NCBI RefSeq assembly: GCF_006489205.2
Contig: NZ_VFYR02000001.1
Coordinates: 1,024,555 to 1,088,554 of the forward strand
Reading direction: 5' to 3'
Length of the DNA: 64,000 bases
Source of the DNA: Brevibacterium sp. XM4083
Lineage (GTDB): Bacteria; Actinomycetota; Actinomycetes; Actinomycetales; Brevibacteriaceae
Below the pieces are notes generated by a model that was not told the origin of the DNA, ran no database searches, and saw nothing but the letters and a program-made list of their open reading frames with translations. A program made the translations under genes and the position numbers. Shown here piece after piece: positions 3,598-19,137 of the stretch. Numbering within the stretch: the first letter of the stretch is position 1; each line of letters begins with the position of its first letter.

Positions 3598-3629
3598 ATC
3601 CTCCTTGAACTCCTTGTGCGGGGCTCCCG

Positions 3630-3675: not shown

Positions 3676-4366
3676 ATTCCTCGTCATTCGGTGAACCAAC
3701 GACTTCCGTCTCTAGACGGAACCCAATCCCCCGAACAGTCTTGATACACACCGTCGGACCCAGTTTGACGCGCAGATTGTTGATGTGTGTGTCCAGAGTT
3801 CGGCTCCGCGGTGCCCAAGTGTCACCCCACACGCATTCAATCAAGTCCTCCCGGCTCACAATTCGCGGGGAGTTGCAGACAAGTCGACGGATCAACTCGA
3901 ATTCCTTATTCGTGAGGGCAACCTTTGAGCCATTCACATGGACGGATCGTGTTGTGGGATCGACATGAACCCCGCCGAGCGCAAGGGCTCTGCACTCATT
4001 CGCCACGGTCTTCAAAAGGCCTCGTCGGGTCACCGCTTCAATCCGCGCGGCAAGCTCATGGACACTGCAATCCCCGTTGACGCAATCGTCCGCTCCGGCA
4101 CGAAGTGCGAGCACTACGAACATATCGGACGTTTCGCCCGTAACCGCGATGATCGGGGCCCTCGTCTTCTCGCGGACGCGCCGGCAAACTTCGATTGCCT
4201 GGGTCTCGTCACAACCCATATCGAGCAAGACTAACTCTGTCTCTTGCGTGATCCTCTTCGATAACTCCTCGAGGGGAACTGCGACGATCTGGTGGCCGAG
4301 CGCGAGCAGCCCTTTCGTCACATCACCATCGAGCGCTGCCCCAACGGTCTTCAGTATGGCGACCAT
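3653..4366 (-). CDS. Orphan atypical OmpR-family response regulator
   Basis: A 237-residue protein. Start ATG at 4366 is chosen because GGGGAAGG sits 7 bases upstream and the receiver begins there; the upstream in-frame extension is low complexity. Residues 1-120 form a receiver-like domain with an Asp at 49 (VLLDMG). It lacks the N-terminal acidic pair and the conserved switch Lys (DDCVNGDCS in its place), so ordinary aspartyl phosphorylation is doubtful. Residues about 140-228 are a winged helix of OmpR type, with LTNKEFELIRRL, REDLIECVWG, the SRTLDTHINNLRVKLG recognition region and the TVRGIGFRL wing. No histidine kinase is adjacent. Atypical regulators of this type (for example JadR1) control natural-product clusters by sensing ligands, and this one is divergent from the AmCP operon, so it is a candidate cluster-situated regulator. 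The C-terminus ends in a poly-Pro stretch encoded by the G14/C14 tract. Confidence 0.8.
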   Translation of the reverse strand: MVAILKTVGAALDGDVTKGLLALGHQIVAVPLEELSKRITQETELVLLDMGCDETQAIEVCRRVREKTRAPIIAVTGETSDMFVVLALRAGADDCVNGDCSVHELAARIEAVTRRGLLKTVANECRALALGGVHVDPTTRSVHVNGSKVALTNKEFELIRRLVCNSPRIVSREDLIECVWGDTWAPRSRTLDTHINNLRVKLGPTVCIKTVRGIGFRLETEVVGSPNDEESPPPPAE

Positions 4367-5189
4367 TCCATGACCTTCCCCGGATGCGGCGAGCGGCCAC
4401 CGTACCGCCGCTCGCCTAGCTCTTGGCACTGACTGCGGCTCCCGCGGCCGCTCAACGCTGAGCTGTGACTGATTGGGCAGAGCACCATAGCAACCGCGTC
4501 CTGCTTTCGTGGCTGCCACGTGCATGGTGGTGACGACGTTCGCCCCGATCTGATCATCGCTTGTTCACATCCTTTCGCGACTCATTTAGCTCCCAGGCCA
4601 GCCGCAGGCCCACTGCCGACCGGTTCAGGATCAACATACCTCGCTGTGGCGCCCATCACTCTCCTCATGACGTTAGAAGCACTAATCTACGACACCACTG
4701 CCCCCGTCCCCGCATGTCCGTCGACCCTCGGGGTGGCGACGGTGGACGGGGTAGCGACGTCTACTCGATGCCTGTCTGGCCCATTCGCCGCTTGGGCGGA
4801 GTCTAGATCGACTCCCATCACATCCATGGCACTCAGGGTTCGCCCGCACAGCGGAGCTCCGCTGCCGGAACCGACCATCGTCGGTCGTGGCATTGCGAAA
4901 CTGTCGGCCAGCATCATCCACGGTGCCCATCGTGAGCACCGTATTGAGTCACCCTTTGGCGTCAACGCGGCGCCTCGATGTTGAACGAGGTCTCAGATTG
5001 ACGCTCACGTGACAACTAGCGCGAACGTTGATGATTGTTTGTCGAAGATTTTACATATCACGTGTTGTTCATTGTCGTGAAACATCGGGAAGCTGGAAAT
5101 GCGCACGCATCCGTCAAAGAACCCAAGGGTGACTGTCTTTCAGAGGCATCACTACTCAAGGTTTCCCGACCGCGAAGGGAACACACGCA
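4367..5189. other. 823-bp divergent intergenic region between regulator and AmCP operon
   Basis: No open frame here has a convincing ribosome site or recognisable protein; the longest (154 codons, plus strand from 4520) resembles nothing and is not called. The last 190 bases are relatively AT-rich and probably hold the operon promoter. Earlier parts may be decayed coding sequence. Confidence 0.5.
5006..5064. promoter_or_regulatory. Paired CACGTG palindromes upstream of the AmCP operon
   Basis: CACGTG occurs at 5006-5011 (inside the 8-bp palindrome TCACGTGA) and at 5059-5064 (TCACGTGT). The centres are 53 bases apart, close to five helical turns, and the second lies about 125 bases before the first start codon. 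This is a plausible pair of regulator half-sites; the binding protein is unknown. Confidence 0.3.
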
Positions 5190-6374
5190 ATGACCACCGG
5201 AGAAAACTCGCAGATACTGCCACAGATTCCTCGATTGTCCGATGCGACGCTCAGAGATTCCGCTCATATGGCCGGGGTCGAATTCAATCCACGCCACGCG
5301 CGTAAGATCTCGCAGTTGCTTACGAGTGTGGGTGTCGAGCTCGTGGAGGTCGGGATGATCTCAGGATCAAACTCCGCCGACTCGCGACTCATACGCGAAG
5401 TCCACGACGCAATCGGTCCAGAGCGCGCCATGTCGCTTGTCATGGTACGTACGAAAAGGCAGGTAGAAGAGGCACTCAAGGAAGCCAAGCGACTCGACGT
5501 TCAGACCGTCATGTTCTCTATTCCGACCTCGGAGGAGCACGCCGCCCTCAAGCTTGCATCGGGAAGCGCGGCATTCGTTATGAACCTCGCCCGCCACGCA
5601 ATTCAGACCGCCAAAGGACACGGAATGACCGTCGTGTTTAGCGGCGAAGATGGAGCTCGTACCGAAGATCAGCGTCTCCGTGACTACGTGGCCAGCGGAT
5701 TCGACGCCGGCGGTGACCGTTTCCGGCTCGCCGAAACCGTTGCCACGCTCACACCCTGGCAAATGGAGCAGAAGGTCCGACCTCTCGTCGATATGGACAA
5801 GGGCGAGGTCGAGATCCACTCCCACAACATGCTCGGGATGGCCGTCGCCAACTCCATTGCTGCTTGCCGCGCAGGTGCTCAATGGGTCTCGGCCACAGTT
5901 GGTGGAATCGGCGAGAGGGGAGGAAACGCGCCACTTGCCGAGGTGCTCGCCACGCTCAGCATCACATACGGCATCCGCCGTTATGACCTCACGCCGCTGA
6001 CCGACCTCACCCGTATCGCCCTCGCCGGCTCAGGCCTCGGCAATCAGTTCCAATCCGGCCCCACGACTGACCACGCGTTCGCATACGAACTCCCCGGTCA
6101 GCTGACTCACCCGACCGCCTACGAAACTCTGGGTCCCGAAACGGTCGGCAACCACCGTTCCCTGAGAGTTCGCACCCGAATCACACCAGCCCTCGTGCAG
6201 GTCGCCCTCGACCGCGCCGACACCACCCTGGACATCGACCTATCCGAGTTCACCGCCTGGCTGGTCGAGCACCAGGAGACCAACGGACGGAACGAGATCG
6301 ACGAGCACCAGATCGCTGAACTCGCCCGCACATATCTCACCCACACAACCCTTCAGGAGGCTACCCATGTCTGA
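5190..6374 (+). CDS. Homocitrate/isopropylmalate synthase-like DRE-TIM condensing enzyme
   Basis: 394 residues, first gene of the AmCP operon; ATG 5190 follows GAAGGGA. The N-terminal DATLRDS motif (Asp18, Arg22-Asp23), the VELVEVGM strand, FSGEDGARTED, the metal-binding HSHN (His210/His212) and the signature GIGERGGNAPL place it in the LeuA/homocitrate-synthase/NifV/CimA group of acyl-CoA plus 2-oxo-acid condensing enzymes. There is no C-terminal LeuA regulatory domain. In LysW-dependent lysine synthesis, homocitrate synthase makes the first intermediate, but here no aconitase or isopropylmalate-dehydrogenase homologue follows. The condensation product is therefore probably used directly or by other enzymes. 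The acyl-adenylate ligase encoded downstream could supply its acyl-CoA. The 3' end overlaps the carrier gene by 8 bases. The substrate is not assignable from sequence, and a lyase/aldolase role is possible. Confidence 0.78.
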   Translation: MTTGENSQILPQIPRLSDATLRDSAHMAGVEFNPRHARKISQLLTSVGVELVEVGMISGSNSADSRLIREVHDAIGPERAMSLVMVRTKRQVEEALKEAKRLDVQTVMFSIPTSEEHAALKLASGSAAFVMNLARHAIQTAKGHGMTVVFSGEDGARTEDQRLRDYVASGFDAGGDRFRLAETVATLTPWQMEQKVRPLVDMDKGEVEIHSHNMLGMAVANSIAACRAGAQWVSATVGGIGERGGNAPLAEVLATLSITYGIRRYDLTPLTDLTRIALAGSGLGNQFQSGPTTDHAFAYELPGQLTHPTAYETLGPETVGNHRSLRVRTRITPALVQVALDRADTTLDIDLSEFTAWLVEHQETNGRNEIDEHQIAELARTYLTHTTLQEATHV

Positions 6375-6561
6375 TGCAACCACCCAGCTCGCAGGAACCT
6401 GCCCCGAGTGCGACTTCACCATCGAAGCCGAAGACCTCACAGCCGGCGAAACCCTTGCCTGCCCTGAGTGCCTGCTGACCCTGCGCGTCGATGAGGTCAC
6501 GCCCGAACGAGCGCTCTCCCTGACTGCGGTCGAAGTCGACCTCCGCGACTGGGGTCAGTGA
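6367..6561 (+). CDS. lysW: LysW-type amino-group carrier protein (AmCP) with C-terminal Gln
   Basis: 64 residues. ATG 6367 is preceded by AGGAGG at ideal distance and overlaps the synthase stop. Two CPEC knuckles (Cys12/Cys15 and Cys32/Cys35) form the LysW zinc site, followed by a short beta segment and the acidic tail ending RDWGQ. In Thermus lysine, Sulfolobus arginine and Streptomyces vazabitide pathways, the C-terminal Glu of the DWGE end is joined through its gamma-carboxyl to the substrate amino group. This shields the amine while kinase and reductase act on the side-chain carboxylate. Here the last residue is Gln (codon cag followed by tga). Either the side-chain amide is hydrolysed first, the alpha-carboxylate is used, or the chemistry differs. 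Placement directly before lysX-, lysY- and lysZ-like genes makes the family call firm. Confidence 0.9.
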   Translation: MSDATTQLAGTCPECDFTIEAEDLTAGETLACPECLLTLRVDEVTPERALSLTAVEVDLRDWGQ

Positions 6562-6594
6562 GACTGCCCAGGCCAGACAGGAAGGCTCCACGAG

Positions 6595-7443
6595 ATGACT
6601 AAATCAATAGCAATACTCTCCGACAGAGTCGGCTGGGAAGAACGCCAAATCGTCGATCGCGCAGCAGCGATGGGGATGCGAACTGAGTGGATCAACGACG
6701 CATCTTTGCCCATCGACCAACACGGGATTCGGGCACTCGAACCGTTCGATGTCGCGTTGGTCAGGTCAAAGAGCTACGTACGAGGCGGACTTATCGCAGC
6801 TTCCGGATCCACCGGAAACACGCGCATGCTTAACACCGCGTCCGCCATACAGATCTGCGAGAACAAGCTCATCACCCGTCAGACTCTCAGCAGAGCCGGG
6901 ATTCCAGTCCCAGAGTACCGGCTGGTGTTTTCGAGAGAATCATTTCGTGAAGCCGTTGAAGCCATGCGCTTTCCCGTCGTCATGAAACCCATATACGGAG
7001 GACTCGGCAAGCGCGTCACCCTCCTCACGGACAAGAGAACCGCAGAATCCGTCTTCGACTATGTAGCGGATCTCGGGCACGGCTTCGAGCAAGCCTGTCT
7101 CCTTGAGGAGTACATGAGCGAGAACTCGTGGCGCGTGCTCGTTGTGGGAACACGCATCGTGGCCGCCGCGGAGTTCCAACCCGCGCCCGGCGACTGGCGC
7201 AGCAACGCCGCACTGGGCAGTGGTCACAACGAACTGGAACTCACTCCCAAGGTCCAGCAAGTCATTCGCGGCGTCGTCGATCAAATCGGACCCGGAATCT
7301 ACGGCATCGACATCTTCCGTCGAGGAGACGGCGGAGTCGTCAATGAGATCAACCACGCGCCCGGCTTCCGGGGCGTCACAGAGGGCTCCGGCGTCGATGT
7401 GAGTGACGAGATTTGCCGATACATCGAAGGGATGGACCTATGA
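6595..7443 (+). CDS. lysX: LysX/RimK-like ATP-grasp ligase, loads substrate on AmCP
   Basis: 282 residues, the usual LysX length. ATP-grasp features are visible: AMRFPVVMKPIYGGLGKRV (nucleotide lysine and glycine-rich loop), LLEEYM, GIYGIDIFRRGDGG and the metal-binding VNEINHAPGF. Known homologues activate the C-terminal carboxylate of LysW as an acyl phosphate and couple it to the amino group of 2-aminoadipate or glutamate. The N(N/T)A..I..CENK-type segment (NTASAIQICENKL) before the central domain is typical of the LysX/ArgX/RimK group. Substrate choice cannot be read by eye. It lies 33 bases after the carrier gene and overlaps the next gene by ATGA, so it is translationally coupled. Given the Gln-ended carrier, its acceptor-site chemistry is the key open question. 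Confidence 0.87.
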   Translation: MTKSIAILSDRVGWEERQIVDRAAAMGMRTEWINDASLPIDQHGIRALEPFDVALVRSKSYVRGGLIAASGSTGNTRMLNTASAIQICENKLITRQTLSRAGIPVPEYRLVFSRESFREAVEAMRFPVVMKPIYGGLGKRVTLLTDKRTAESVFDYVADLGHGFEQACLLEEYMSENSWRVLVVGTRIVAAAEFQPAPGDWRSNAALGSGHNELELTPKVQQVIRGVVDQIGPGIYGIDIFRRGDGGVVNEINHAPGFRGVTEGSGVDVSDEICRYIEGMDL

Positions 7444-8498
7444 TTCGCGCAGGCATAGTCGGCGCATCCGGCCTGGCCGGAGGCGAGCTCGTCCGACTGC
7501 TCACCCAACACCCCTCTTTCGAGATCACCATCGTCTGCGGCTCCGGCAGTGTTGGGAAGCTCATCCACCAACTGCATCCCAACCTCCGTGATGCTACCAA
7601 ACTGACCGTCCAACCAATCGACCCCCACGACATCGAGCAGAAGTGCGACGTGGTCTTCCTCGCGACCCCGCCAGCAGAGTCCTCCCGGATCGCAGAGCTG
7701 CTCGCAGAGACGACGACCCGCGTCATCGACCTCAGCGGTGCCTTCCGCATCAAGGACGCCACAACCCACAGCAGGTGGTACCCGAGCGTCCACCGCAACG
7801 AGCACCTCGCGACGCGATTCCTCTACGGAGTGCCCGAACTCGTCGCGGACGCCGAGTGGACCTCAGCGCAGCTCATCAGCCTCCCGGGCTGTTTCGCTAC
7901 CGCGATCGCACTGAGCCTGGCCCCGCTCGTCGACAGCGGGATCCCGCTCGGGCGGGTCATCGTCGACGGAAAGACCGGATCCAGCGGCGGCGGAGTCTCA
8001 GGACGCAGTGGGGCTTCCCACCCCATCCGCACGGGATCAGTCACTCCCTACGCGCCCGCAGGCCACCGCCACTCCGCCGAGGTCGAAGAGTTTCTTAACG
8101 ACCGGGAACCAACCTCGAACGCGAGCATCTCAATGTCCGCCTACGGTGTGTCTCACGTACGAGGTCTCCTCGCCACCTCGTACCTGTTCCCGCAGACCGA
8201 CCTCGAAGAGAAGGCAGCGCGCAAGCTATTTTTCGGTCACTACCGAGGGAAACATTTCGTCCGGGTCCGCTCTCACACCGAATCCACCATCCCACTCCCT
8301 GATCCGCACGCCCTCGTCGCGTCCAACTACTGCGACATCACCGTCGCTCGCGACCCCAACGGAGGACCGTTGGTCGTCATGGCAGCCCTGGACAACCTCA
8401 TCAAGGGGGCCGCCGGTCAAGCGATCCAAGTTGCCAATCTCGCCTTCGGCCGACCCGAAGAGGAAGGAATCGGCCAGCTGCCGGTGTTCCCGGCATGA
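7440..8498 (+). CDS. lysY: LysY/ArgC-like AmCP-acyl-phosphate reductase
   Basis: 352 residues from ATG 7440 within the ATGA overlap with the ligase; an upstream in-frame codon at 7413 would lie inside lysX and is rejected. The N-terminal Rossmann motif GIVGASGLAGGELVRLL, the catalytic Cys151 in SLPGCFATAIAL and HVRGLLAT in the C-terminal half match N-acetyl-gamma-glutamyl-phosphate reductase/LysY. The family reduces the acyl phosphate made by the kinase to the semialdehyde with NADPH. In this operon the substrate should be the AmCP-bound amino acid. The GTGSVTPYAPAGHRHSAE-like segment is characteristic of the ArgC/LysY branch. Gene order carrier-ligase-reductase-kinase parallels Thermus and Streptomyces AmCP loci, which supports the LysY rather than ArgC assignment. 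Confidence 0.87.
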   Translation: MIRAGIVGASGLAGGELVRLLTQHPSFEITIVCGSGSVGKLIHQLHPNLRDATKLTVQPIDPHDIEQKCDVVFLATPPAESSRIAELLAETTTRVIDLSGAFRIKDATTHSRWYPSVHRNEHLATRFLYGVPELVADAEWTSAQLISLPGCFATAIALSLAPLVDSGIPLGRVIVDGKTGSSGGGVSGRSGASHPIRTGSVTPYAPAGHRHSAEVEEFLNDREPTSNASISMSAYGVSHVRGLLATSYLFPQTDLEEKAARKLFFGHYRGKHFVRVRSHTESTIPLPDPHALVASNYCDITVARDPNGGPLVVMAALDNLIKGAAGQAIQVANLAFGRPEEEGIGQLPVFPA

Positions 8499-9277
8499 AT
8501 GCCGCATCCGTTATCAAACTCGGAGGCAGTCAACTCGAAGGAATGGCCACGGCTTGGTGGGATGACTTCGCCTCGCATGCCTTCACATACCCTGTTATCG
8601 CTGTGCACGGCTGGTCCAAACCCCTCCGAGAGTTCCAGCAGAAAAAAGGCGTCGAAACGGTGCTCATCACAGACCGCTACGGAAACCAGAGCAGGCTCAC
8701 TACGCAAGACGTCATCGATGACATACGACACGTCAGCGGCGTAATCGCTTCTAGCGTATGCAGCCAACTTCGGGCGCGCGGCATCAACCTCATCCACCAC
8801 TTCGGAACAGACGGTCTCCTCACCACAGGGCCAAGTGAGTCCAAATGGTGGATCAACAAGAAGCTCACACACTTCGACAACCGCGTCGGCCCCATCGACC
8901 AAGTCGACAGCAGCCTTCTACCAGAGCCGCTCCCTGGAACCGTGCACCTGATCACCCCTCTAGCGCGCAACCCCGAGGGACTCGAAGTAAACACCGACGC
9001 CGACCGGGCAGCCGCAGCAATAGCCGGCGCCACGGCAACTCCCAATCTCCACCTCATCACGGACGTCGAAGGCGTCATCGCCGACGGTAAAGTGCAGCGC
9101 CAGCTGTCCCTCGCCGAAGCGCTTCGAGTCCGAGACACGAACGCCCGAGGAGGCATGCGCAAGAAGCTCCGAGCAGCAGGTGAAGCGATCGAGGCCGGCG
9201 TAGAGCGCGTCTACATCGGTTCGGGCACGCTCACGTCCTTGAACTCCCAAAAGACCGGAACGGTGATTTCTCCATGA
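8495..9277 (+). CDS. lysZ: LysZ/ArgB-like AmCP-amino-acid kinase
   Basis: 260 residues, amino-acid kinase family, near the usual LysZ length. ATG 8495 overlaps the reductase stop (ATGA). Visible motifs are the N-terminal VIKLGGSQL phosphate loop, AVHGWSKP (substrate glycine region), EVNTDADRAAAAIAGA and LITDVEGVIADG, and GGMRKKLRAAGEAI. The family phosphorylates the distal carboxylate of N-blocked glutamate or aminoadipate; the LysZ subset acts on the carrier-bound form. The lack of a nearby N-acetyltransferase (ArgJ/ArgA) and the carrier gene in the same operon argue for AmCP substrate over acetylglutamate. The stop codon overlaps the GATase start, again by ATGA. Confidence 0.85.
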   Translation: MNAASVIKLGGSQLEGMATAWWDDFASHAFTYPVIAVHGWSKPLREFQQKKGVETVLITDRYGNQSRLTTQDVIDDIRHVSGVIASSVCSQLRARGINLIHHFGTDGLLTTGPSESKWWINKKLTHFDNRVGPIDQVDSSLLPEPLPGTVHLITPLARNPEGLEVNTDADRAAAAIAGATATPNLHLITDVEGVIADGKVQRQLSLAEALRVRDTNARGGMRKKLRAAGEAIEAGVERVYIGSGTLTSLNSQKTGTVISP

Positions 9278-9909
9278 CTATCCTCAACCCAGCCCCCCTT
9301 ACCGGCAAAACAGTCCTCGTCGTCAACAACGGCACGCTCTCGCTAAGACAACTGGTCACCCGATTCAACGAACTCGGCGCAAACACACGCACCGTCGACG
9401 TCGGAAACGTAGCGCCTGACCTCTCCGGTTTCGACGCTCTGGTACTCAGCGGCACCAAGGTAAGGGCCTACGACACGGAACACTACCGACATCTCCTGCA
9501 CGTTGTAGACAACACCGACAAGCCTGTTCTCGGTGTCTGCGGCGGAATGCAGCTCATGCTCACCGCGCGCGGTGCTCAGCTCGAACCCGGAGAACAGCGA
9601 GTGGGAGGCCACTGGGCCACCGTGAACAAGGACGAGCGAATCTTCGACTACGTCGACACGGCCGTCCGGGTATTCCATCGCCACACTCTCTACGTCAAGA
9701 CAGTGCCACCGGGCTTCACATCAATCGGTCGATCCGAGCTCGCCCCCGTCGAATTCGTCCGCTCAGACGACCACCGAATCTTCGGCTCCCAAGCACACCT
9801 CGAATTCGGGCCGGACGGGAAACAAATTCTCCGCGGCTTCGCAGACCGCATCACCGAAGGACCCAGCAGGGCCTTCGACACCGCACGAAAGGAACAGAAC
9901 TGTGCCTGA
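9274..9909 (+). CDS. Class I glutamine-amidotransferase-like hydrolase (GATase1)
   Basis: 211 residues forming one GATase1 domain. The nucleophile elbow GVCGGMQLM has Cys89, and AHLEF carries His175 and Glu177, so the Cys-His-Glu triad is complete. No synthetase domain is fused, and no partner of anthranilate, carbamoyl-phosphate or GMP-synthase type is next to it. Stand-alone members include PuuD-type gamma-glutamyl amide hydrolases. LysK, the peptidase that normally frees product from LysW, is missing in this cluster. This enzyme is therefore a candidate to hydrolyse the gamma-glutamyl linkage at the carrier end, to deamidate the carrier's terminal Gln, or to deliver ammonia. These roles are inference. 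It is coupled by overlapping codons to the genes on both sides, which implies stoichiometric pathway function. Confidence 0.75.
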   Translation: MTILNPAPLTGKTVLVVNNGTLSLRQLVTRFNELGANTRTVDVGNVAPDLSGFDALVLSGTKVRAYDTEHYRHLLHVVDNTDKPVLGVCGGMQLMLTARGAQLEPGEQRVGGHWATVNKDERIFDYVDTAVRVFHRHTLYVKTVPPGFTSIGRSELAPVEFVRSDDHRIFGSQAHLEFGPDGKQILRGFADRITEGPSRAFDTARKEQNCA

Positions 9910-11020
9910 GCACCAGACGCACCGCGACCCGGTCTTCACCGTGAATCTCAACGGAGCCGATGGGGACCTGAACGGGTGGGTCGTCGTCGACTCCCTCGTC
10001 GACTCCCTCGCCATGGGCGGAACGAGAATGACCCCAGACGTCTCCCTGTCGGAAGTCGCCGCACTCGCACGTGTGATGACCAGCAAGCTCCACCTCGTCG
10101 GCCTCCCGATCGGCGGCGCCAAGGCAGGCATCGTCTCCGACGGTACCGATCGTGACCACACCATGCAGTCCTTCGGCCGAACGGTCGCCCCACTGTTGCA
10201 CGGCGGAATTCACCTCGGCGTCGACATGGGAGTCACCCCGGCCGATCGTGCCACCTTCTTCTCCGCAGCTCACTACGACCCTCGTCGCAAGTTCGACGGC
10301 GTCGACATGCCCTACGACTGGCGAACCTACTACGAACCCCTCGAAGACTGCACCGGCCACGGCGTAGGAACCGCGGCCGTGACAGCACTGGACCAGCTCG
10401 GCGAGGGAGCGGCGCGCTCCGTCGTCCTTCAAGGGTTCGGCAGCGTCGGACGTGCCGTCGCGGCATTCCTCGTCGCCCACGGACATCGGCTCATCGGTGT
10501 GGCCGACGTCCGAGGCACCGTCATCGATCAGCAAGGTCTCCCGCTGGACAAGCTCCTCGCCGCAACCAACCGCTTCGGAGTCATCGACCGCGACCAGCTC
10601 CTCCCAGAAACTCACACGGTCGAGAATGTGCCGGGATGGCTCACAACACCCGCAGACGTCCTCGTGCTCGCCGCGAACCAGCACGCCATCAACGACGACA
10701 ACGTCGACCAGGTCGACGCAGCCATCGTCGTCGAAGGCGGGAACCAGTGCATCAGCCCCGGCGCCCGTAAGCGCTTGGCCGAACGTGGCATCACCGTGGT
10801 GCACGACACGATCGCCAACGTAGGCGGTGCGGCCGCAGCCGGCCTTGCCCTTACACGCACTGTCCCCTTCGAACTGCCCGGCCCGGAGCGCAAGGCATGG
10901 GTCTTCAACTGGGTGGCCGAAAGAGTCGCTGTGAACACACGCGACCTGCTGGAAGCGGCCAAGACCAGCGACGACCCCATCGCTGACCTCTTAACGAATC
11001 GGAAGAAGGCTGTGCTGTGA
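9902..11020 (+). CDS. Glu/Leu/Phe/Val dehydrogenase family amino acid dehydrogenase
   Basis: 372 residues from GTG 9902, inside the end of the GATase gene. The ELFV signature GLPIGGAKAGIV with catalytic Lys74, an upstream Lys in MTSKLHLV and the Asp-containing LGVDMGVTPADR make up the catalytic set. The NAD-binding motif is GFGSVGRAVAAFL and the C-terminal part has NVGGAAAAGLALT. Length and motifs resemble leucine/valine dehydrogenases more than hexameric glutamate dehydrogenases. It would interconvert a 2-oxo acid and an L-amino acid with NAD(P)H and ammonia. In the operon it could aminate the oxo acid derived from the synthase product before AmCP loading, perhaps with ammonia from the GATase-like protein. 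The substrate is unknown. The last codons overlap the next gene by GTGA. Confidence 0.8.
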   Translation: MPEHQTHRDPVFTVNLNGADGDLNGWVVVDSLVDSLAMGGTRMTPDVSLSEVAALARVMTSKLHLVGLPIGGAKAGIVSDGTDRDHTMQSFGRTVAPLLHGGIHLGVDMGVTPADRATFFSAAHYDPRRKFDGVDMPYDWRTYYEPLEDCTGHGVGTAAVTALDQLGEGAARSVVLQGFGSVGRAVAAFLVAHGHRLIGVADVRGTVIDQQGLPLDKLLAATNRFGVIDRDQLLPETHTVENVPGWLTTPADVLVLAANQHAINDDNVDQVDAAIVVEGGNQCISPGARKRLAERGITVVHDTIANVGGAAAAGLALTRTVPFELPGPERKAWVFNWVAERVAVNTRDLLEAAKTSDDPIADLLTNRKKAVL

Positions 11021-12612
11021 ACCCACGAACGATTCCTGACACAGACACCTACCGGTCGCAGGGCTGGTGGCGCGACGTCACCTTCCTCGACGACCTCGAC
11101 CGGCATACCCGCGAGACGCCGCTCAAGACTGCTCTCATCGAGATGCGGCCTGAAGGTTCCACCCACGTCAGCTATCACGAGCTGAGTGCAGCGGTCGACA
11201 TTCACGCGGAGACACTCCTCCGCATTGGAATAGGCGCCCAGGATGTCGTCGCTGTTCAGCTCGGCAATCGGAGAGAACTCCCGATACTGCTGTTCGCATG
11301 TATGCGCGTTGGCGCGGTGTTCTGCCCGATCGCACCCGAGTGCCCGACGGGCGAACTCAGCCATCGACTGACCGTCGCGGATGTCAAACTCCTCATCACC
11401 TCCAATGAGCCGCCCCCCGCCGACGCAGACGAGGAGCTACGCGACTGCGAGAACAGCACCATCCCCACCTCAGTCACAGTCCTGCATGTCGACGCCCTAA
11501 CCCAGCTCAACGCAGGGAACCCCGCTGAACCGGAGCCACCAGCTACACACAGACGTGCTGAATCGATCAATTCTGATGACCCCACGCTCATCCTTTTCAC
11601 CTCCGGCACGACAGGTTTCTCAAAGGGAGTGGTGCACACCAGCAATACGCTCTACGCAGCGATACGAGCCTACGTCGACATTCTCCTACTGACCCACCAG
11701 GACGTCACGGCCATCACCACACCTCTCGTCCACTATTCGGGCATCGGACAGGGCATCCTTGGAACCATCCACGCTGGTGCGACCGCCGCATTCACGCCAC
11801 AGAACGAACCTGAGGACCACCTGCAACTGATCTCGCGAAACTCCGCAACCCTCGTCTACGGTCCGCCGAAGAAGATCGAAGCAATTGCAGCACTCCAGCA
11901 AACGTGCACGGGCAGCGCGGTAGACACGCTCACCCGCGTCGTTGTCGGAACAGCACCAGTTCTTCCGCGACTGCTCCATACCGTCAGACACGCTTTTCGC
12001 GCCCGGGTCTTCTCTGTATGGGGACTCTCAGAGTTCGGCCCCATCACGACAACCGTGCCCCTGTTTCTCGATGACAAGACAACTCGCACGAACGGCCGTC
12101 CTGCGGACTCCGTCGCCCTCAAGCTCGAGGACTTCCCCCCGGCCACGGACGGAACGGGCCGGCTCTACGCAAAAGGCGCTTCCCGCGCGATCACCTACGC
12201 CGGAACACCAGACAAGATGAACGAGGCACTCGACGCAGACGGGTGGTTCGATACCGGCGACCTTGCGCGGCGCAACGCAGCCGGTGAGATCAAGATCCTC
12301 GGTCGGGCGACGGACTCCATCGTTCGTGACGGCAAGGTCGCACCCATCGCCGACATCGAAGCAAGCCTCCTCGAGGTTCCGTCCGTCAACGACGCCGTCG
12401 TCCTCAGCCGTAGCACGGCAGACGATCACCCCATTGTCACCGTCGTCCTCGTTGCGCGCCGCAACGTGCCCCTTCCCGAAGTCCAAGAAGCTCTGAGTAT
12501 CGACTTCACGGATTTCCCTATCGACGAGGTGCAGATCGTTCCCGAAATCCCGCGCACCCTCACCGGGAAGGCTAGAAAAGCCGAACTGCGAACCAGGTTG
12601 GAGCCACGTTGA
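11017..12612 (+). CDS. Acyl-adenylate-forming ligase (ANL superfamily, acyl-CoA synthetase-like)
   Basis: 531 residues from GTG 11017 (GTGA overlap). The adenylation motifs are clear: phosphate loop LFTSGTTGFSKG near residue 194, a WGLSEFGP aromatic motif, WFDTGDLARRNAAGEI with the Asp that binds ribose, ILGRATDSI hinge and IPRTLTGKARKAE with the catalytic Lys518. It activates a carboxylic acid to the acyl-AMP and then usually to a CoA or carrier thioester. No fused carrier or condensation domain is present, and no PKS/NRPS gene is nearby. It could provide the acyl-CoA condensed by the first enzyme of the operon, or activate the AmCP product for amide formation. Its N-terminus contains an acidic, less conserved insertion around residues 130-185. 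Confidence 0.82.
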   Translation: MNPRTIPDTDTYRSQGWWRDVTFLDDLDRHTRETPLKTALIEMRPEGSTHVSYHELSAAVDIHAETLLRIGIGAQDVVAVQLGNRRELPILLFACMRVGAVFCPIAPECPTGELSHRLTVADVKLLITSNEPPPADADEELRDCENSTIPTSVTVLHVDALTQLNAGNPAEPEPPATHRRAESINSDDPTLILFTSGTTGFSKGVVHTSNTLYAAIRAYVDILLLTHQDVTAITTPLVHYSGIGQGILGTIHAGATAAFTPQNEPEDHLQLISRNSATLVYGPPKKIEAIAALQQTCTGSAVDTLTRVVVGTAPVLPRLLHTVRHAFRARVFSVWGLSEFGPITTTVPLFLDDKTTRTNGRPADSVALKLEDFPPATDGTGRLYAKGASRAITYAGTPDKMNEALDADGWFDTGDLARRNAAGEIKILGRATDSIVRDGKVAPIADIEASLLEVPSVNDAVVLSRSTADDHPIVTVVLVARRNVPLPEVQEALSIDFTDFPIDEVQIVPEIPRTLTGKARKAELRTRLEPR

Positions 12613-13892
12613 GTCGCCATATTCCGAACCTTTCTCTCACCACCTTGCCCACCTCACCCACCCTCGCAGCCGATGCAGAAATGCGAGCGCTCACGGAAGC
12701 GGGGCGAAAGATTATCTCATTCGCCAGCGGAGAGATTGGACTGCCCGCACTACCAGTTCTCGCCGACGAGCTCGCGCTCAGCACCAGAGAGTCTGCATAC
12801 GGGCCGGTCGGCGGGAATCCCGACATGCTTCAAGCGGCCGCCGGCTACTGGACTAGACGCGGACTCGCCACAGGCCCCAATCAGCTGATCGCAGGCCCCG
12901 GAACTAAACCTCTCATCTACGCGGCCATTTCCGCGATGCAAGGAGAGGTGGTTGTGCCCCAGCCCTCATGGGTGAGCTACGCCGTCCAGGCGGAACTCGC
13001 CGGCAAACGTGTCCACCGGGTACCGACGAGATCAACTCAAGGGGGCATACCGGACCCCGCACTTCTCGCGGACCGCATTCGCTCGGCCCGAAGCGCCGGT
13101 GCTGACCCGCGCATCGTCGTGGTGACAATCCCGGACAACCCGACAGGCGACGTGGCATCCTCGGACACGCTTCAAGACCTTGCATCGGTAGCACGCGAGC
13201 TGGACTTGGTGATCATCTCCGACGAGATCTACACCGACCTCGTGTTCGAAGGCACCGCACCTCACCCGGCCAGCTTCGCCCCCGAACGAACGATCACCAC
13301 CACCGGCCTGACAAAGTCCCTTGCCCTAGGCGGATGGCGGCTCGGAGTGCTCCGCACGCCTGCCACAGAGTTCGGCGCGCGAGTCCATGGCGCGATCAAG
13401 GCCGTCGCCAGCCAAGTCTGGTCCAGCGTGGCCGCACCAATCCAACAAGCAGCAGTCCTTGCCTTCAATGAACCCGCCGAAGTGCGATCGTGGGTCTCAG
13501 CCGCCCGCCGGCTCCACCAAGGTGTGACAGGCACCCTCGCTGCCGCTCTTTCGAACATCGGCGCGGACCTGCCACACCCGGTGGCCACCTGCTACCTCTA
13601 TCCCTCGTTCGATCGACTCGCCGACAAACTCGCGCAGCATAAGCAGATCCACACAAGTGACGAACTCGCGAAAGCACTCCTCCAACATGGGATCTACTGC
13701 CTGCCCGGCAACGCCTTCGGTGACCCACCTGATCGCCTGACACTGCGATTCAGCGTCTCCCACCTCTACGGAGAGACAGCACAGGAGCAAGAGGAGTCAT
13801 TGAAGTCACACGACCCCACAACACTTCCCTGGGTCCAAGAGCCCATCCGTCGGCTCGAAGCAGCCCTTAAGACCCTTATGTCCACCGACTAA
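12609..13892 (+). CDS. PLP-dependent class I/II aminotransferase
   Basis: 427 residues starting at TTG 12609, which overlaps the ligase stop (TTGA); the first in-frame ATG is well inside the fold. It shows PLP fold type I features: GPGTKPLIYAAI, TIPDNPTGDVAS, IISDEIYTDLVFEG, and the Schiff-base Lys236 in TTTGLTKSLALGGWRLG. C-terminal LPGNAFGDPPDRLTLRFS contains the Arg that binds substrate carboxylate. The family covers aspartate, aromatic and 2-aminoadipate (LysN) aminotransferases. In this cluster it may aminate the semialdehyde made on the AmCP, replacing LysJ, or form the starting amino acid. LysJ proper belongs to the class III (acetylornithine) aminotransferases and is absent. Confidence 0.82.
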   Translation: MSRHIPNLSLTTLPTSPTLAADAEMRALTEAGRKIISFASGEIGLPALPVLADELALSTRESAYGPVGGNPDMLQAAAGYWTRRGLATGPNQLIAGPGTKPLIYAAISAMQGEVVVPQPSWVSYAVQAELAGKRVHRVPTRSTQGGIPDPALLADRIRSARSAGADPRIVVVTIPDNPTGDVASSDTLQDLASVARELDLVIISDEIYTDLVFEGTAPHPASFAPERTITTTGLTKSLALGGWRLGVLRTPATEFGARVHGAIKAVASQVWSSVAAPIQQAAVLAFNEPAEVRSWVSAARRLHQGVTGTLAAALSNIGADLPHPVATCYLYPSFDRLADKLAQHKQIHTSDELAKALLQHGIYCLPGNAFGDPPDRLTLRFSVSHLYGETAQEQEESLKSHDPTTLPWVQEPIRRLEAALKTLMSTD

Positions 13893-13910
13893 ACCCAACA
13901 GGAGAACATC

Positions 13911-14786
13911 ATGACCATCACAGTTTTCGAGTGCGTCAACCAGGGTGAGCGCCACATTGGCGTCTCCGACAGCACCTCCACACTCCTCTACAAGGCACCG
14001 GACTTCGACCTCGGAAAAGCCACCATCGCTCACGGATCGCTAGAGCTCGCGATCGACGCACTCAAACACGCTACTGACCCCGTCGAGCCCGCCGGCCCTG
14101 CCACCGTCGACCGCCTCATCCCCGCACTGCCCCGCGACGGTCGCGAGTCACTCGTCAGCGGCTTCATGCGAACCCACCGTTCCAAGTTCGAAGATAGCGA
14201 GCCCGAAGGCAGTGGCTTCCCGCCGAACTGGTTCTTCAAAGGCTTCGGCAGCTGGCTCAAGCTCGACGGCGAAAACCTCGTCGTGCCCCAGCGCGCCGTA
14301 GCCCTCATCGAAGAACCAGAACTCGTCGTTGTCTACATCAACGACGACGAGGGGACCCCTCACTACGTTGGCTACACCTTCGGCAACGACCTCTGCGACA
14401 TCGGCCTCCACCGCCAGAACCCAGGATGGAACCCCTACTGCAAGCTCTGCGACACGGCGATCCTGGACGGGATTCGCACAGGTCGGCCCCCAGCCCATGC
14501 TGAGGGAACGACCCGCATCTCGCGGGACTCCCAGCCGGTCTGGGAGGGCACGTTCGACTGCGGCGAAGACGCACTACAGTTCCCCGTGGACGCCATGGTC
14601 TCCCACCTGTTTACCTTCCCCGCCATGCACCGCCCTGGTATGGTCAACTACATCTACCTCGGGGCGGACCTGGCGAGCTTCCATGACGGCTTCCGCATCG
14701 CCGATAAGGACACGATCTCCATCAGCATCCCCGAGCACGGGGTGAATCTGACAAACACTATCCATTCTGTCGAGACATCCCTGTAA
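13911..14786 (+). CDS. FAH-superfamily protein (AraD1/GguC-like)
   Basis: 291 residues; ATG 13911 follows AGGAGAAC with 18 bases of spacer from the aminotransferase. The C-terminal two thirds carry fumarylacetoacetate-hydrolase-fold features: PPNWFFKGFGSWL, the metal-ligating E-x-E (Glu135, Glu137) in EEPELVVVY, then VGYTFGNDLCDIGLH and KLCDTAILDG. This pattern is closest to the AraD1/GguC subgroup, which acts on 2-oxo or 3-deoxy acids; other FAH proteins are C-C hydrolases, hydratases or decarboxylases. The N-terminal 90 residues are a small variable domain. In this pathway a divalent-metal-dependent step on a beta-keto or hydroxy acid is plausible. The substrate is not predictable. Confidence 0.68.
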   Translation: MTITVFECVNQGERHIGVSDSTSTLLYKAPDFDLGKATIAHGSLELAIDALKHATDPVEPAGPATVDRLIPALPRDGRESLVSGFMRTHRSKFEDSEPEGSGFPPNWFFKGFGSWLKLDGENLVVPQRAVALIEEPELVVVYINDDEGTPHYVGYTFGNDLCDIGLHRQNPGWNPYCKLCDTAILDGIRTGRPPAHAEGTTRISRDSQPVWEGTFDCGEDALQFPVDAMVSHLFTFPAMHRPGMVNYIYLGADLASFHDGFRIADKDTISISIPEHGVNLTNTIHSVETSL

Positions 14787-14803
14787 CACCTGAAGGGACA
14801 GAC

Positions 14804-15928
14804 ATGAATTTACCGAGGCGCCTCCACATAGGGATCGCACTCGAAGGGTCTGGTTGGCACCCAGCATCCTGGTCGGCCTCTTCCATCACAAAGCCCGAGC
14901 AGCTGTTCCAGCCTCGCTTCTGGCAGGACATGGCATTGCGCCTCGACCAGGCCGAAGTCGACTTCGCCACCATCGAGGACGGGATCAGCCTTCAAGGGTC
15001 ATCATTCGGCTTCGCTGACCAGAGAGCCGATCAATATCGTGGACGCATGGACTCTCTCGTCCTCGGTACCGTGATGCTCAATGCCACATCGTGCCTCAAA
15101 GTCATCATGTCGCGGAACGTCACCCACACGGCAGCATTCCTCGTCGCCTCCCAACTCGCGTCGGTGGCTAACCTTGCCCCGGGGCGGGTTGGGTGGCGCC
15201 CCCAGGTGTCGTCCAACGCCGCTGACAGTGCCATCATCGGAGGAAAACCCACACCATCCCTCATGCCCGAAGACATCTACGTCCCCACGCGGATCGCCCA
15301 CAGGCTCCGCTCACTCTTTGACGACGCCGCAGACTTCGTCGCGGTCGTCAAAGCACTATGGCAAACCTTCCCCGGCTCAGCTCTGTCTACCGAAACCACA
15401 AGCGCCCCGAGAGATTTCCTAGACCCTTCCCGTATATCAAGGGATCCGATAACTGCAGGCCAGCACAAGGCTTCCGGACCTCTGAACGTGCCAGTGTTCC
15501 AACCACCCGAGACAATGGCACTCGCACATCACGCCCTCGAGCCATATCGCTTCGCGGCCATCGCCGCAGACAGCGTCCTTGTCACCCCGGACGGCGACAC
15601 ATCACTGGCAAAAATCCTCAGCGTGCTACAAGACATTGAGGAACTGAGCCCTATGGCCTCAACCTCACGCATCTACTGTGACCTCATTGTGATTCTGGGC
15701 GATTCGCAAGAGCATGCCCGATCCCGCAAAGAAGAACTCGATGGCTGTCTGGGAAGCGAATGGAGCTCCGATACTCACATTTTCGTCGGCACACCGCCGG
15801 AACTGATCGACCTCATCCAGGAATGGACCCAGCATGAACGCTTTTCGGGAGTTCGCCTGAGACCAGCCGTCATCCCCGAAGACGTGAACCGAATCATTGA
15901 AGAAGTAATGCCACGAATCCGAGGTTAA
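14804..15928 (+). CDS. Luciferase-like flavin-dependent monooxygenase
   Basis: 374 residues, last gene of the operon; ATG 14804 follows GAAGGGACAG. The sequence has the bacterial-luciferase TIM-barrel layout of the NtaA/SnaA/DszA group: RRLHIGIALEGSGWHPASW N-terminus, a QAEVDFATIEDG strand, VIMSRNVTHTAAFLVA, and LASVANLAPGRVGWRPQVSS, where FMNH2-dependent members usually carry GWNVVTS. These enzymes oxidise with O2 and reduced flavin supplied by a separate reductase; no reductase is encoded nearby. In nitrilotriacetate and related systems they oxidise next to nitrogen. Here it is the likely late oxidative tailoring step (N- or C-hydroxylation or oxidative cleavage). Sequence is visibly divergent in the central region, so substrate and even catalytic competence are open. 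Confidence 0.72.
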   Translation: MNLPRRLHIGIALEGSGWHPASWSASSITKPEQLFQPRFWQDMALRLDQAEVDFATIEDGISLQGSSFGFADQRADQYRGRMDSLVLGTVMLNATSCLKVIMSRNVTHTAAFLVASQLASVANLAPGRVGWRPQVSSNAADSAIIGGKPTPSLMPEDIYVPTRIAHRLRSLFDDAADFVAVVKALWQTFPGSALSTETTSAPRDFLDPSRISRDPITAGQHKASGPLNVPVFQPPETMALAHHALEPYRFAAIAADSVLVTPDGDTSLAKILSVLQDIEELSPMASTSRIYCDLIVILGDSQEHARSRKEELDGCLGSEWSSDTHIFVGTPPELIDLIQEWTQHERFSGVRLRPAVIPEDVNRIIEEVMPRIRG

Positions 15929-16331
15929 GACTCGCAGTTCAGTAAACCCGCACAGTATCGACCCGACAGGCATACTTTTATAGTGCTCGCAAGCAACGGG
16001 CAATCACCTCGGTCCCGAGCCCGGCCTGTAGTGGCTGTCATTGACGGGCTACTGCGGAAGGTGCGAACACCTTCCACGTGCTCTCGCGGGTGGTCGGAAA
16101 GCGCAATTCACATACATGCCCTGCCGCTGCAAACGGCGAGCGCCCCGTCAAGCGTAGGCGGGAAGTGAATGGTGGCCTGAAACCCCAACCGCCCCTCGTG
16201 CGCAGCGTCGCTCGGGCCCACTGGAAGAGGTGCAGCGCGCCCCAGCCATCCCCCATGCTGCCGACCGCGCCACGATGCGAACCACGTTGGCCGCGAAGAG
16301 AGACTTCAGGCCACCGGAGCTGAGAGACCTC
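15929..16331. other. 403-bp non-coding stretch after the AmCP operon
   Basis: No gene with a ribosome site is seen between the operon end and the convergent MerR gene. No strong terminator hairpin was found by eye. Confidence 0.5.
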
Positions 16332-16709
16332 CTACGCAATCTTGTCGGCAGCGCAGCTCTCAACCTCGCTGAGGTATTCGTCGATGGCATCCCGATTCTT
16401 CGCCAAGCATCGAACACGCTCATCCATACGATCACGGTGATGCCTGAGTAGCGCCAACATCTCCGGCGTTGCATCCTTGAAGAAGATCGTTCGCGGCTTA
16501 TCCAGGCAGGGAAGGACCTGCTTGATGATGCGCACTGGGAGCCCTGCATCGAGCAACCCACGGATCTGCAACACTCGGTCGATGTTGGCCTCCTCATACC
16601 AGCGGTAGCCGTTTTCGCTACGCTCGGCCATGATGAGCCCCTGCTCTTCGTAGTAGCGCAGCAGCCGCCGCGAAGTGTCAGTCCTCTCGGAGAGCTCGCC
16701 AATGCGCAT
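16332..16709 (-). CDS. MerR-family transcriptional regulator
   Basis: 125 residues from ATG 16709; ATG 16718 is an equally possible start three codons upstream, and the longer frame to 16769 would run through the operator. The N-terminal winged helix is canonical: MRIGELSERTDTSRRLLRYY, EEQGLIMAERSENGYRWY, then IDRVLQIRGLLDAGLP and a coiled-coil dimerisation helix (residues about 75-115). A Cys lies near the C-terminus (EVESCAADKIA) and another in VLPCLDK, but there is no clear metal-binding loop, so an organic effector is likelier. It is divergent from the MFS gene 67 bases away with a near-perfect dyad between. The same operator type lies before the racemase-like gene at 2690, which suggests a small regulon bracketing the AmCP cluster. 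Confidence 0.85.
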   Translation of the reverse strand: MRIGELSERTDTSRRLLRYYEEQGLIMAERSENGYRWYEEANIDRVLQIRGLLDAGLPVRIIKQVLPCLDKPRTIFFKDATPEMLALLRHHRDRMDERVRCLAKNRDAIDEYLSEVESCAADKIA

Positions 16710-16736
16710 GTGTCGCATCTCACTTTCAGATTCGGC

Positions 16737-16761
16737 TTGACCTTCACACTTATGTGAGGGT
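16737..16761 (+). promoter_or_regulatory. MerR-type operator in merR/MFS divergent promoter
   Basis: -35-like TTGACC at 16737-16742 leads into the dyad ACCTTCACA-CTTA-TGTGAGGGT (16740-16761), with 8 of 9 paired positions. It lies just 15 bases before the MFS start codon, so the MFS transcript must have a very short leader or start elsewhere. Confidence 0.65.
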
Positions 16762-16775
16762 TTCACCATGGTTGC

Positions 16776-17996
16776 ATGACAGATACAACTACGTCAACGC
16801 GCGTTGGTCGTCCGCCTTCCGAGCGGCTGCCCGTAGGCTCCTTGCTCGCGCTCGGTACAGCAGTGTTCATTACAGCCCTCACCGAGACTCTGCCAGCCGG
16901 TGTGCTTCCGGGCATGAGTGCAAGTCTCGGAGCCAGCGAGGCGGCGGTAGGCCAGACTGTGACCATCTACGCGATTGCGACTGCGCTGACAACGATCCCT
17001 CTTGCCATTCTCACTGCGAAGTGGCGCAGAAAGCCACTCTTGCTGGTGACCATGGCTCTGTTCGCTGTCGCCAACACGGTAACGGCCTTCTCCAGCGACT
17101 ATCTCCTCACCATGATCGCCCGATTTGCGGCCGGCGTAGCGGCCGGACTGGCCTGGGCAATGATTGCAGGCTACGCGCGCCGGATGGTCGTACCTTCCTT
17201 GCAGGGGAAGGCCATCGCAGTGGTGATGACGGGAATCCCGCTTGCTCTGGGCCTCGGCGTGCCTGCAGGCGCCTTCCTCGCTGGTCTCATCGACTGGCGG
17301 GCGGCATTCCTCGCGATGACCGTGCTCACGCTCATCCTCCTCCTGTGGGTGCTCTTGTTTGTTCCGGATCAGGCAGGAACAACACGGGATCGGAGCACCG
17401 GAGTACGGGCAACGCTTGCAACTCCCGGCGTTGTCGCGGTTCTGGTCGTCGTGCTCTTGTTCGTCCTCGCCCACACCATTGGGTACACCTACATAGCAAC
17501 ATATCTACATCAAGTGGGGCTTGGAGCACAGGTCGACTTGGTCCTGCTCGCCTTCGGGCTCGCTTCCCTTGTCTCCATCTGGGTGACAGGAACGTTCATC
17601 CAGACGCATTTGCGAGCGCTTATGATCTTCACGACGGTGCTCGTCGGAGTTGCCTCGACGGCGCTAGCGCTCGTCTTCGACAACCACGTACTGATTTACG
17701 TGGCTGTGATCGTCTGGGGTCTCGGCTGGGGCGGAGTCCCGACGTTGACCCAGACCGCTGCCAACGACGCTGGGGGGAAGGCGGCTGACACGGCTCAGTC
17801 AATGCTGGTTACCCTTTGGAACCTGTCCATGGCGTTGGGGGGCATAGCGGGCGGCCTTATCCTCGCAGGCCTGGGCACCTTGTCACTCCCTTGGGCCCTG
17901 CCTGTCCTACTGTTGCCAACGCTTATCGTCGTGCTGGCCTCGCGCCACGGTTTTCCTCGCTACCGGGCAGTAGCCGAGACTGAGCCCACAGACTAG
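16776..17996 (+). CDS. MFS transporter (DHA1-type efflux family)
   Basis: 406 residues with about 12 hydrophobic segments, starting at ATG 16776. The loop 2-3 signature appears as AKWRRKPLLLVTMALF, and the motif-C region TGIPLALGLGVPAGAFLAG (Gly-rich TM5) is typical of drug:H+ antiporters of the DHA1 family such as AraJ/Cml/YdhP-like exporters. Substrate is unknown. Divergence from a MerR regulator implies inducible efflux. Its position next to the AmCP operon, and the matching operator upstream of the racemase-like gene, make export of the cluster product or a related toxic compound plausible. Unrelated antibiotic or dye efflux remains possible. Confidence 0.85.
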   Translation: MTDTTTSTRVGRPPSERLPVGSLLALGTAVFITALTETLPAGVLPGMSASLGASEAAVGQTVTIYAIATALTTIPLAILTAKWRRKPLLLVTMALFAVANTVTAFSSDYLLTMIARFAAGVAAGLAWAMIAGYARRMVVPSLQGKAIAVVMTGIPLALGLGVPAGAFLAGLIDWRAAFLAMTVLTLILLLWVLLFVPDQAGTTRDRSTGVRATLATPGVVAVLVVVLLFVLAHTIGYTYIATYLHQVGLGAQVDLVLLAFGLASLVSIWVTGTFIQTHLRALMIFTTVLVGVASTALALVFDNHVLIYVAVIVWGLGWGGVPTLTQTAANDAGGKAADTAQSMLVTLWNLSMALGGIAGGLILAGLGTLSLPWALPVLLLPTLIVVLASRHGFPRYRAVAETEPTD

Positions 17997-19129: not shown

Positions 19130-19137
19130 GACCGTCC

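Follow-up and report, generated by a model that had tools for sequence, protein, structure and literature searches.

The 64,000-nucleotide stretch analyzed here, referred to below as the window, covers positions 1,024,555 to 1,088,554 of contig NZ_VFYR02000001.1 of Brevibacterium sp. XM4083 and carries, at 5190-15928 on its + strand, eleven codirectional open frames that include a LysW-type amino-group carrier protein (AmCP). The C-terminus of this carrier reads LRDWGQ, ending in Gln and not in the Glu that defines AmCPs, and on sequence grounds the family to which it belongs is a new AmCP subfamily with the C-terminal residue encoded as Gln. Tentatively, sequence and analogy lead us to propose that the Gln-ended form is an inactive pro-carrier that would cycle through a single class I glutamine amidotransferase (GATase1) of the same operon, much as Pup cycles through Dop but as an independently arisen system, and that this cycle is coupled to an aldol-type extension yielding an undescribed amino acid or cyclized derivative.

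The carrier and its C-terminal glutamine

The carrier (P0002) is a small protein adjoining lysX with two CPxC zinc knuckles, and it matches LysW (3wwl) over its full length (E 2.8e-4). Its scores fall under the curated cut-offs of the LysW-family models (24.3 against 27, 30.2 against 75 and 19.8 against 53.2), and a Pfam search of the host's own genome did not report it. For comparison, 54 loci were assembled, comprising the window, 48 loci from a genome scan and five of nine plasmid records of the family. In 52 of these, 55 carriers were read; 52 end in Gln, encoded by CAG throughout, and three in Glu (GAG), the latter on two Rhodococcus plasmids and in Actinopolyspora alba (L006, L009 and L049). 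The initial annotation of this DNA had missed the Gln ending, which is the main oddity of the operon. A draw of 295 genomes gave 12 carriers, all Gln-ended, of which seven came from new cores and five repeated cores already counted (at least four being the same genomes); GATase loci L130-L133 of this draw were too short to include a carrier, and the tails were read from L134-L145.

Carriers of canonical AmCP clusters, used as controls, are Glu-ended in 10/10 loci, representing nine distinct sequences (L115 and L116 are identical). These loci (L093, L094, L115-L118 and L124-L127) include Streptomyces, Deinococcus and Pseudalkalibacillus. Of 22 matches to PF21344, two (L093 and L094) had a tail of the [DE]WG-X type and served as controls, the other 20 standing outside the count; in the L094 genome the LysX match lies ~16 kb from the carrier. 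Eight of nine further candidate control records were read, that of Staphylococcus epidermidis (H49) being left out.

The AmCP isopeptide bond runs via the gamma-carboxylate of the C-terminal glutamate, as described in the accessible text of PMC9303977. Because the residue encoded here is Gln, the tail could not be loaded by this route unless it were first deamidated. On a tree built from seven concatenated enzymes (48 rows), two changes are needed to account for Glu, with Actinopolyspora nested among Gln rows and the GATase kept; the tree joins long branches (the window with Rhodococcus), and only the nested Actinopolyspora change is solid. Since the Glu state is nested in this way and the GATase is retained, as it is in all three Glu-carrier loci, the two tails look interchangeable and the GATase appears to have work beyond deamidation.

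Organization and distribution of the gene cluster

The eleven codirectional, overlapping genes had been described in the initial annotation as a LysW carrier with LysX-, LysY- and LysZ-like and other named enzymes, and this description is borne out by the open frames, the Pfam and NCBIfam profile searches and the overlaps. The families matched within 5190-15928 are HMGL-like (DRE-TIM), LysW-like Zn ribbon, RimK/LysX ATP-grasp, ArgC/LysY, amino-acid kinase (LysZ-like), GATase, ELFV dehydrogenase, AMP-binding, Aminotran_1_2 and Bac_luciferase. Conservation reaches beyond this interval, over about 2642-17996, and takes in Amdase-like, response-regulator, MerR and MFS genes. Its features are as follows, with the number of the 54 loci that hold each gene.

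2642-3430, + strand: arylmalonate decarboxylase / Asp-Glu racemase superfamily protein, cluster neighbor (Pfam Amdase, 40 bits; 39/54)
3653-4525, - strand: OmpR/GlnR-like response regulator, likely cluster regulator (Pfam Trans_reg_C, Response_reg, GlnR_1st; 48/54)
5190-6374, + strand: DRE-TIM condensing enzyme, homocitrate/isopropylmalate synthase-like, with the aldolase-like motif LRDSAH (HMGL-like, 158 bits; nifV_homocitr, 203 bits, below cut-off; 52/54)
6367-6561, + strand: LysW-like amino-group carrier, 64 residues, tail DWGQ (LysW models matched below cut-offs; 52/54)
6595-7443, + strand: LysX/ArgX-like ATP-grasp ligase, predicted to load the carrier (RimK, LysX_preATP_grasp; nearest solved structures LysX/ArgX 3vpd and 3vpb; 53/54)
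7440-8498, + strand: LysY/ArgC-like phosphate reductase (TIGR01850 argC, 332 bits, above cut-off; 54/54)
8495-9277, + strand: LysZ/ArgB-like kinase (AA_kinase; best model [LysW]-aminoadipate/glutamate kinase, below cut-off; 54/54)
9274-9909, + strand: GATase1, predicted carrier deamidase and product-release hydrolase (GATase; triad C89/H175/E177; 54/54)
9902-11020, + strand: ELFV (Glu/Leu/Phe/Val) dehydrogenase (profile match; 53/54)
11017-12612, + strand: ANL-superfamily acyl/aryl ligase (AMP-binding, 211 bits; 53/54)
12609-13892, + strand: class I/II aminotransferase-fold enzyme dependent on pyridoxal phosphate (PLP) (Aminotran_1_2, 166 bits; best NCBIfam model GntC cyclodehydratase, below cut-off; 50/54)
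13911-14786, + strand: FAH-fold enzyme resembling 2-keto-3-deoxy-arabinonate (KDA) dehydratase, P0010 (NCBIfam GguC/AraD1, 134 bits, below cut-off; 49/54, including two loci where it shares a frame with the aminotransferase)
14804-15928, + strand: luciferase-like / NtaA-type flavin monooxygenase, LLM2, accessory (Bac_luciferase, 28.8 bits; FMN_nitrolo, 96 bits, below cut-off; 21/54)
16332-16769, - strand: MerR-family regulator, start of frame uncertain (phmmer, 167 bits against the MerR of a Rhodococcus cluster; 27/54)
16776-17996, + strand: predicted MFS exporter, cluster neighbor (MFS_1, 146 bits; 47/54)

Overlaps of 4 bp occur at LysY/LysZ, LysZ/GATase, ELFV/ANL and ANL/PLP, and also at LysX/LysY if LysY begins at the ATG at 7440, which is likelier than the listed TTG at 7413. 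The DRE-TIM/AmCP and GATase/ELFV overlaps are of 8 bp, and spacers of 17-33 bp separate AmCP from LysX, PLP from FAH and FAH from the monooxygenase. An Rfam search of 2300-18500 gave no match, and a tRNA search across the window found none.

The genome scan aligned the GATase against 84,980 species genomes; the best 80 of at least 144 relatives were kept, and they gave at least 48 cluster loci at 51-62% GATase identity. The other 32 (L061-L092, at 35% identity or less, barring a 36-residue segment at 53% in L081) were set aside as plain GATases; L061, the sole one of them with its neighborhood scanned, has no operon. All ten core genes are present in 47/54 loci, which puts the gene set far beyond chance assembly. 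Among the seven loci with an incomplete core, L019, L030, L036, L052, L055 and L056 reach a contig end there, and L059 is without ELFV and all later genes, though ~4 kb of sequence follows its GATase. The monooxygenase, counted as a pathway member in the initial annotation, is accessory, with LLM2 present in 21 loci and NtaA in 20.

As 48 of the 54 family loci were collected via the GATase, its presence there holds by construction. The plasmids provide a test of the LysX-GATase linkage that is independent of this sampling because each query, run against 72,556 plasmid records, finds exactly the same nine: LysX at 45-52.5% identity, with none other above 33% among the 40 matches listed, and GATase at 52-60%, with none other above 29% among the 20 matches listed. 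Within 396 genomes of the host's order the window LysX occurs in one, the host itself, and in a second sample, 396 genomes of the phylum, nothing passed apart from the host's and two remote LysX proteins (29-31% identity). The GATase is present in 12 of the 295 genomes drawn from one genus, inferred to be Streptomyces. The cluster is thus not a one-off; it is conserved and scattered among Actinomycetes, and the window copy is a distant member (top identity 55% over 2257 columns). A comparison of window positions 1-25000 with plasmids gave one 1% match, inside a polymerase gene, and among phage records ten had a GATase match, the five listed all being below 30% identity.

In three Streptomyces loci (L020, 18122-18412; L039, 18048-18380; L047, 18155-18370) a second Gln-ended carrier gene lies beside a rearranged aminotransferase/FAH/MFS block. 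Two R. erythropolis plasmids, both from spring wheat (L006 and hit H8; 47 kb and 172 kb), carry operon ligases equally identical to that of the window, and the smaller one (strain MGMM8) has a tyrosine recombinase downstream. In the window itself, the cluster is flanked by a TraI/TraA-like conjugative helicase gene (50-2395) and an error-prone DNA polymerase III alpha-like gene (19138-22494); these flanking genes and the lower GC content of 2-32 kb suggest a mobile island around the cluster. A type I Zorya anti-phage system, ZorA-B-C-D, lies at 24442-31631 on the - strand (best PADLOC models PDLC00601, 00608, 00623 and 00627).

The amidotransferase in place of a release hydrolase

No match to LysK, the Streptomyces M20 protein or LysJ was found in 13,139 frames of the family loci (the 54 and one dropped locus), even at E <= 10, and no homologue of LysT or LysU was found in the family loci. 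The same queries on canonical AmCP stretches gave an M20 hydrolase (LysK type) in 8/8 and a GATase match in 0/8. The earlier statement that LysJ, LysK, LysT/U and LysS are missing therefore stands for the first four proteins and has to be qualified for LysS, of which the DRE-TIM enzyme is itself a distant relative. The GATase1 triad C89/H175/E177 is intact in 54/54 loci.

Judged from these sequences, it is rather probable, though by no means strongly so, that GATase1 deamidates the carrier Gln, that LysX loads the carrier and that the same GATase1 releases the product. In the first step, the enzyme would cut the amide of the terminal Gln side chain by hydrolysis, leaving a Glu competent for ligation. 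In the second, LysX would join an acidic amino acid, probably Glu or a homologue, via its amino group to the gamma-carboxylate, and in the release step (the sixth of seven proposed here) GATase1 would hydrolyze the gamma-glutamyl isopeptide to free the product. The first and sixth steps would be one chemistry because both hydrolyze a gamma-glutamyl amide.

The nearest structural relatives of GATase1 weigh against this assignment. Its AlphaFold model (pLDDT 90.8) has GMP synthase subunit A as the nearest fold (Z about 25), tied with the GATases of aminodeoxychorismate and anthranilate synthases, and plant gamma-glutamyl peptidase 1, whose place among the matches speaks for the assignment, lies further down (Z 20.8); in sequence as in fold, the enzyme is thus closest to GMP synthase subunit A and not to the gamma-glutamyl peptidases. 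GATases of the GMP, aminodeoxychorismate and anthranilate synthase types use free glutamine for a partner, and the operon holds two possible ammonia users, the ANL ligase and the ELFV dehydrogenase, the gene of the latter usually adjacent to that of the GATase. GATase1 might accordingly be an ordinary glutaminase that acts on free glutamine and supplies the ANL ligase (for an amide) or the ELFV enzyme (for reductive amination) with ammonia, the carrier Gln being deamidated spontaneously or by another enzyme. This is unlikely, although it deserves serious attention given the partner-fed nearest relatives and the neighboring GATase and ELFV genes. It would leave the Gln tail and the absent M20 release enzyme unexplained; moreover, the Rhodococcus loci have ELFV at the far end of the operon, distant from the GATase gene, and no synthetase domain is fused to the GATase. 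The modeled fold is compatible with an ammonia donor as well as with a gamma-glutamyl hydrolase; in our view, the genetics favors the hydrolase.

A different chemistry of attachment may also be considered, in which the ligase extends the chain, placing the amino acid on the C-terminal Gln at its alpha-carboxylate, so that a free side chain is not needed. RimK extends the chain of ribosomal protein S6 via its alpha-carboxylate; the ligase belongs to the RimK superfamily (TIGR00768, above cut-off), and Gln and Glu tails seem interchangeable across the family. Nevertheless, such extension is improbable here, since the nearest solved relatives of the ligase are LysX and ArgX, the known AmCPs use the gamma-carboxylate of a terminal Glu (PMC9303977, in the text cited above) and a release enzyme would still be required.

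The cycle proposed for GATase1 has a parallel in the Pup-PafA-Dop system. In the available text of PMC8223512 and PMC8599861, Dop deamidates PupQ and cleaves Pup from proteins, the deamidation being described in a review as 'chemically equivalent to depupylation'. In both systems, a small protein is encoded with a terminal Gln or Glu and ligated through a gamma-carboxylate (predicted here), and a single amidase would serve both tail deamidation and isopeptide cleavage (predicted here; shown for Dop), so that the carrier would correspond to Pup, LysX to PafA and GATase1 to Dop. The family shows a Gln-or-Glu tail (52 and three carriers) with a linked amidase retained in both states. In contrast to Pup-PafA-Dop, a metabolite intermediate would be the cargo here, with a Cys-His-Glu GATase1 and not a glutamine-synthetase-like enzyme as the predicted amidase. 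We know of no homology between the parts of the two systems.

The host itself has two genes of the PafA/Dop (Pup_ligase) family and a PupQ ending in GGQ, and this too counts against a role for GATase1 in activation, as Dop could in principle deamidate the carrier. Among nine actinobacterial hosts (L148-L156, a comparison that left out the Rhodococcus hosts), the Pup C-termini are GGQ or GGE and show no apparent relation to the tail of the carrier: a Gln carrier is found with PupE in four and with PupQ in four, and a Glu carrier with PupQ in one (Actinopolyspora). This lack of tracking argues against deamidation by Dop, if weakly, since the Dop of PupE hosts may still deamidate, and we consider such a substitution for GATase1 quite improbable.

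Candidate extension chemistry and relation to known pathways

In the pathway proposed around the GATase1 cycle, the third step would be the phosphorylation and reduction of the distal carboxylate by LysZ and LysY, giving a carrier-bound semialdehyde. A transketolase pair is held to extend such a semialdehyde in the azinomycin pathway, according to the portion of PMC9570651 available. This pair is present in the Streptomyces loci taken as vazabitide-type; in the family loci, no transketolase was found except for a C-domain match in L008, which lies outside the core and is annotated as a subunit of a ketoacid dehydrogenase. The DRE-TIM enzyme is the candidate extension enzyme.

The DRE-TIM proteins carry the motif SDATLRD(S/T)AHM, with His26 in 52/52; this residue aligns with a His of an annotated 4-hydroxy-2-oxovalerate aldolase, whereas Deinococcus LysS, a homocitrate synthase, has Gln there. 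In the fourth step, the enzyme, with its aldolase-like His, would extend the aldehyde in place of the vazabitide transketolase, using pyruvate or an acyl-CoA as nucleophile. Evidence to the contrary lies in the same proteins: HSH and GERGGN are kept in 52/52, their retention being a trait of Claisen-type DRE-TIM members, and the GERGGN motif together with best scores to homocitrate/isopropylmalate synthases argues for a Claisen condensation with acyl-CoA and not an aldol reaction.

An aldol reaction with pyruvate would give a 4-hydroxy-2-oxo acid, which is the type of substrate dehydrated by the nearest structural relative of the FAH-fold protein. P0010 has no Pfam match, and a Pfam search of 31 FAH-fold proteins gave none; its AlphaFold model (pLDDT 88.7) has 2-keto-3-deoxy-D-arabinonate dehydratase as its top four Foldseek matches, and the model suggests that the enzyme dehydrates 4-hydroxy-2-oxo acids. 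The PLP enzyme has Lys236 in 50/50. In two Kitasatospora loci (L017, 13448-15940; L027, 13473-15797), a single open frame covers both the aminotransferase and the FAH domain; this probable fusion fits consecutive steps. In the fifth step, the KDA-dehydratase-like FAH enzyme would dehydrate the 4-hydroxy-2-oxo acid and the PLP enzyme, the ELFV enzyme or both would aminate the 2-oxo group. Aldol-type extension followed by dehydration and amination is coherent with these sequences and models, but it is doubtful. After release, the ANL ligase and the flavin monooxygenase would tailor the product in a seventh step and the MFS protein would export it; a product of the 2,7-diaminosuberate or 5-substituted proline type, for example, is speculation. 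Of the route sketched in the initial annotation, from condensation and amination through loading, phosphorylation and reduction to release and oxidation, the release step can now be ascribed, probably, to GATase1, and the FAH enzyme takes on the look of a 4-hydroxy-2-oxo-acid dehydratase.

With the AmCP (LysW/ArgW) pathways of lysine and arginine, the family shares a Zn-ribbon carrier with a DWG-X tail and LysX, LysY and LysZ homologues; it differs in the Gln tail, in GATase1, in the additional ELFV, ANL, FAH and class I/II aminotransferase enzymes and in having no LysJ, LysK, LysT or LysU. With AmCP specialized metabolism (vazabitide A, s56-p1 and azinomycin-type), it has in common the LysW-X-Y module (with LysZ where read), a carbon-extension enzyme, an aminotransferase and an actinobacterial setting. 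The Streptomyces transketolase/M20 loci, called vazabitide-type on gene content, have transketolase pairs, DegT aminotransferases, M20 hydrolases and Glu-ended carriers, whereas the present family combines a Gln-ended carrier with GATase1, a DRE-TIM enzyme and an aminotransferase of class I/II, and DegT and M20 have no match in any family locus. The neighborhood comparison thus upholds the view that the gene set is distinct from the lysine locus (Deinococcus) and from these Streptomyces loci. A cluster outside Actinomycetota, on a Pseudalkalibacillus plasmid (L126, 4989-10159), has an AmCP with the tail ESWGE, an M20 hydrolase and aminotransferases of the DegT type. Pearlins and the 3-thiaglutamate carrier peptides likewise involve an amino acid analogue built on a ribosomal carrier. 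In pearlins, the residue is added to the peptide C-terminus from aminoacyl-tRNA (accessible text of PMC9016710), in contrast to the ATP-grasp ligase and Zn-ribbon protein found here.

That the operon lies outside primary metabolism, as first suggested, agrees with the host genome, which has lysA above cut-off and a second argC, also above cut-off, beside argB- and argD-like genes; because these are present, the cluster is not the lysine or arginine route of the host. The R. fascians plasmid on which the operon lies also bears the att locus (PMC7261884 and PMC4092121). Homology of LysW, LysX, LysY and LysZ to the lysine and arginine enzymes, and the presence of the operon on pA21d2, are all that speak for primary biosynthesis or for the att virulence locus of Rhodococcus fascians, and both are very improbable. 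On pA21d2 the att-like genes occupy 15514-25988 and differ in content, and the AmCP operon and its neighbors lie at about 66-82 kb. The att locus, of ten att genes, was rejected as a match since the att-like set (LysR, LysE, argH, argG, argJ and others) is separate on this plasmid. On pA21d2 (L009 and L012) the AmCP operon is ~40 kb from the att-like genes, and its metabolite might have gone unnoticed in att work.

Two other kinds of described cluster were considered and rejected. Family 3 encapsulin clusters with AmCPs were one of them: the annotation of the five plasmid loci names no encapsulin, and no encapsulin-directed search was made. In the available text on diazo/hydrazone clusters, AmCP occurs only in references to the s56-p1 work, PMC13061610 having two mentions of unseen placement. 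In the open-licence PMC literature, no description of the cluster or of a Gln-ended AmCP was found, and no characterized cluster of identical content; absence from print is not established by this search.

As far as its sequences indicate, the operon probably builds a small molecule on the carrier and represents a specialized-metabolite cluster. AmCPs are defined by a cargo-bearing C-terminal Glu, and a widespread subfamily that encodes Gln, with a GATase in the place of the release hydrolase, would imply either that activation includes a new step or that attachment follows a new chemistry. If the Pup-like cycle is true, unrelated systems would have arrived on two occasions at a Gln pro-form with a dual deamidase/isopeptidase. 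The cluster further points to a large, apparently uncharacterized set of pathways that LysW models can miss, as the carrier lies below the Pfam and NCBIfam cut-offs.

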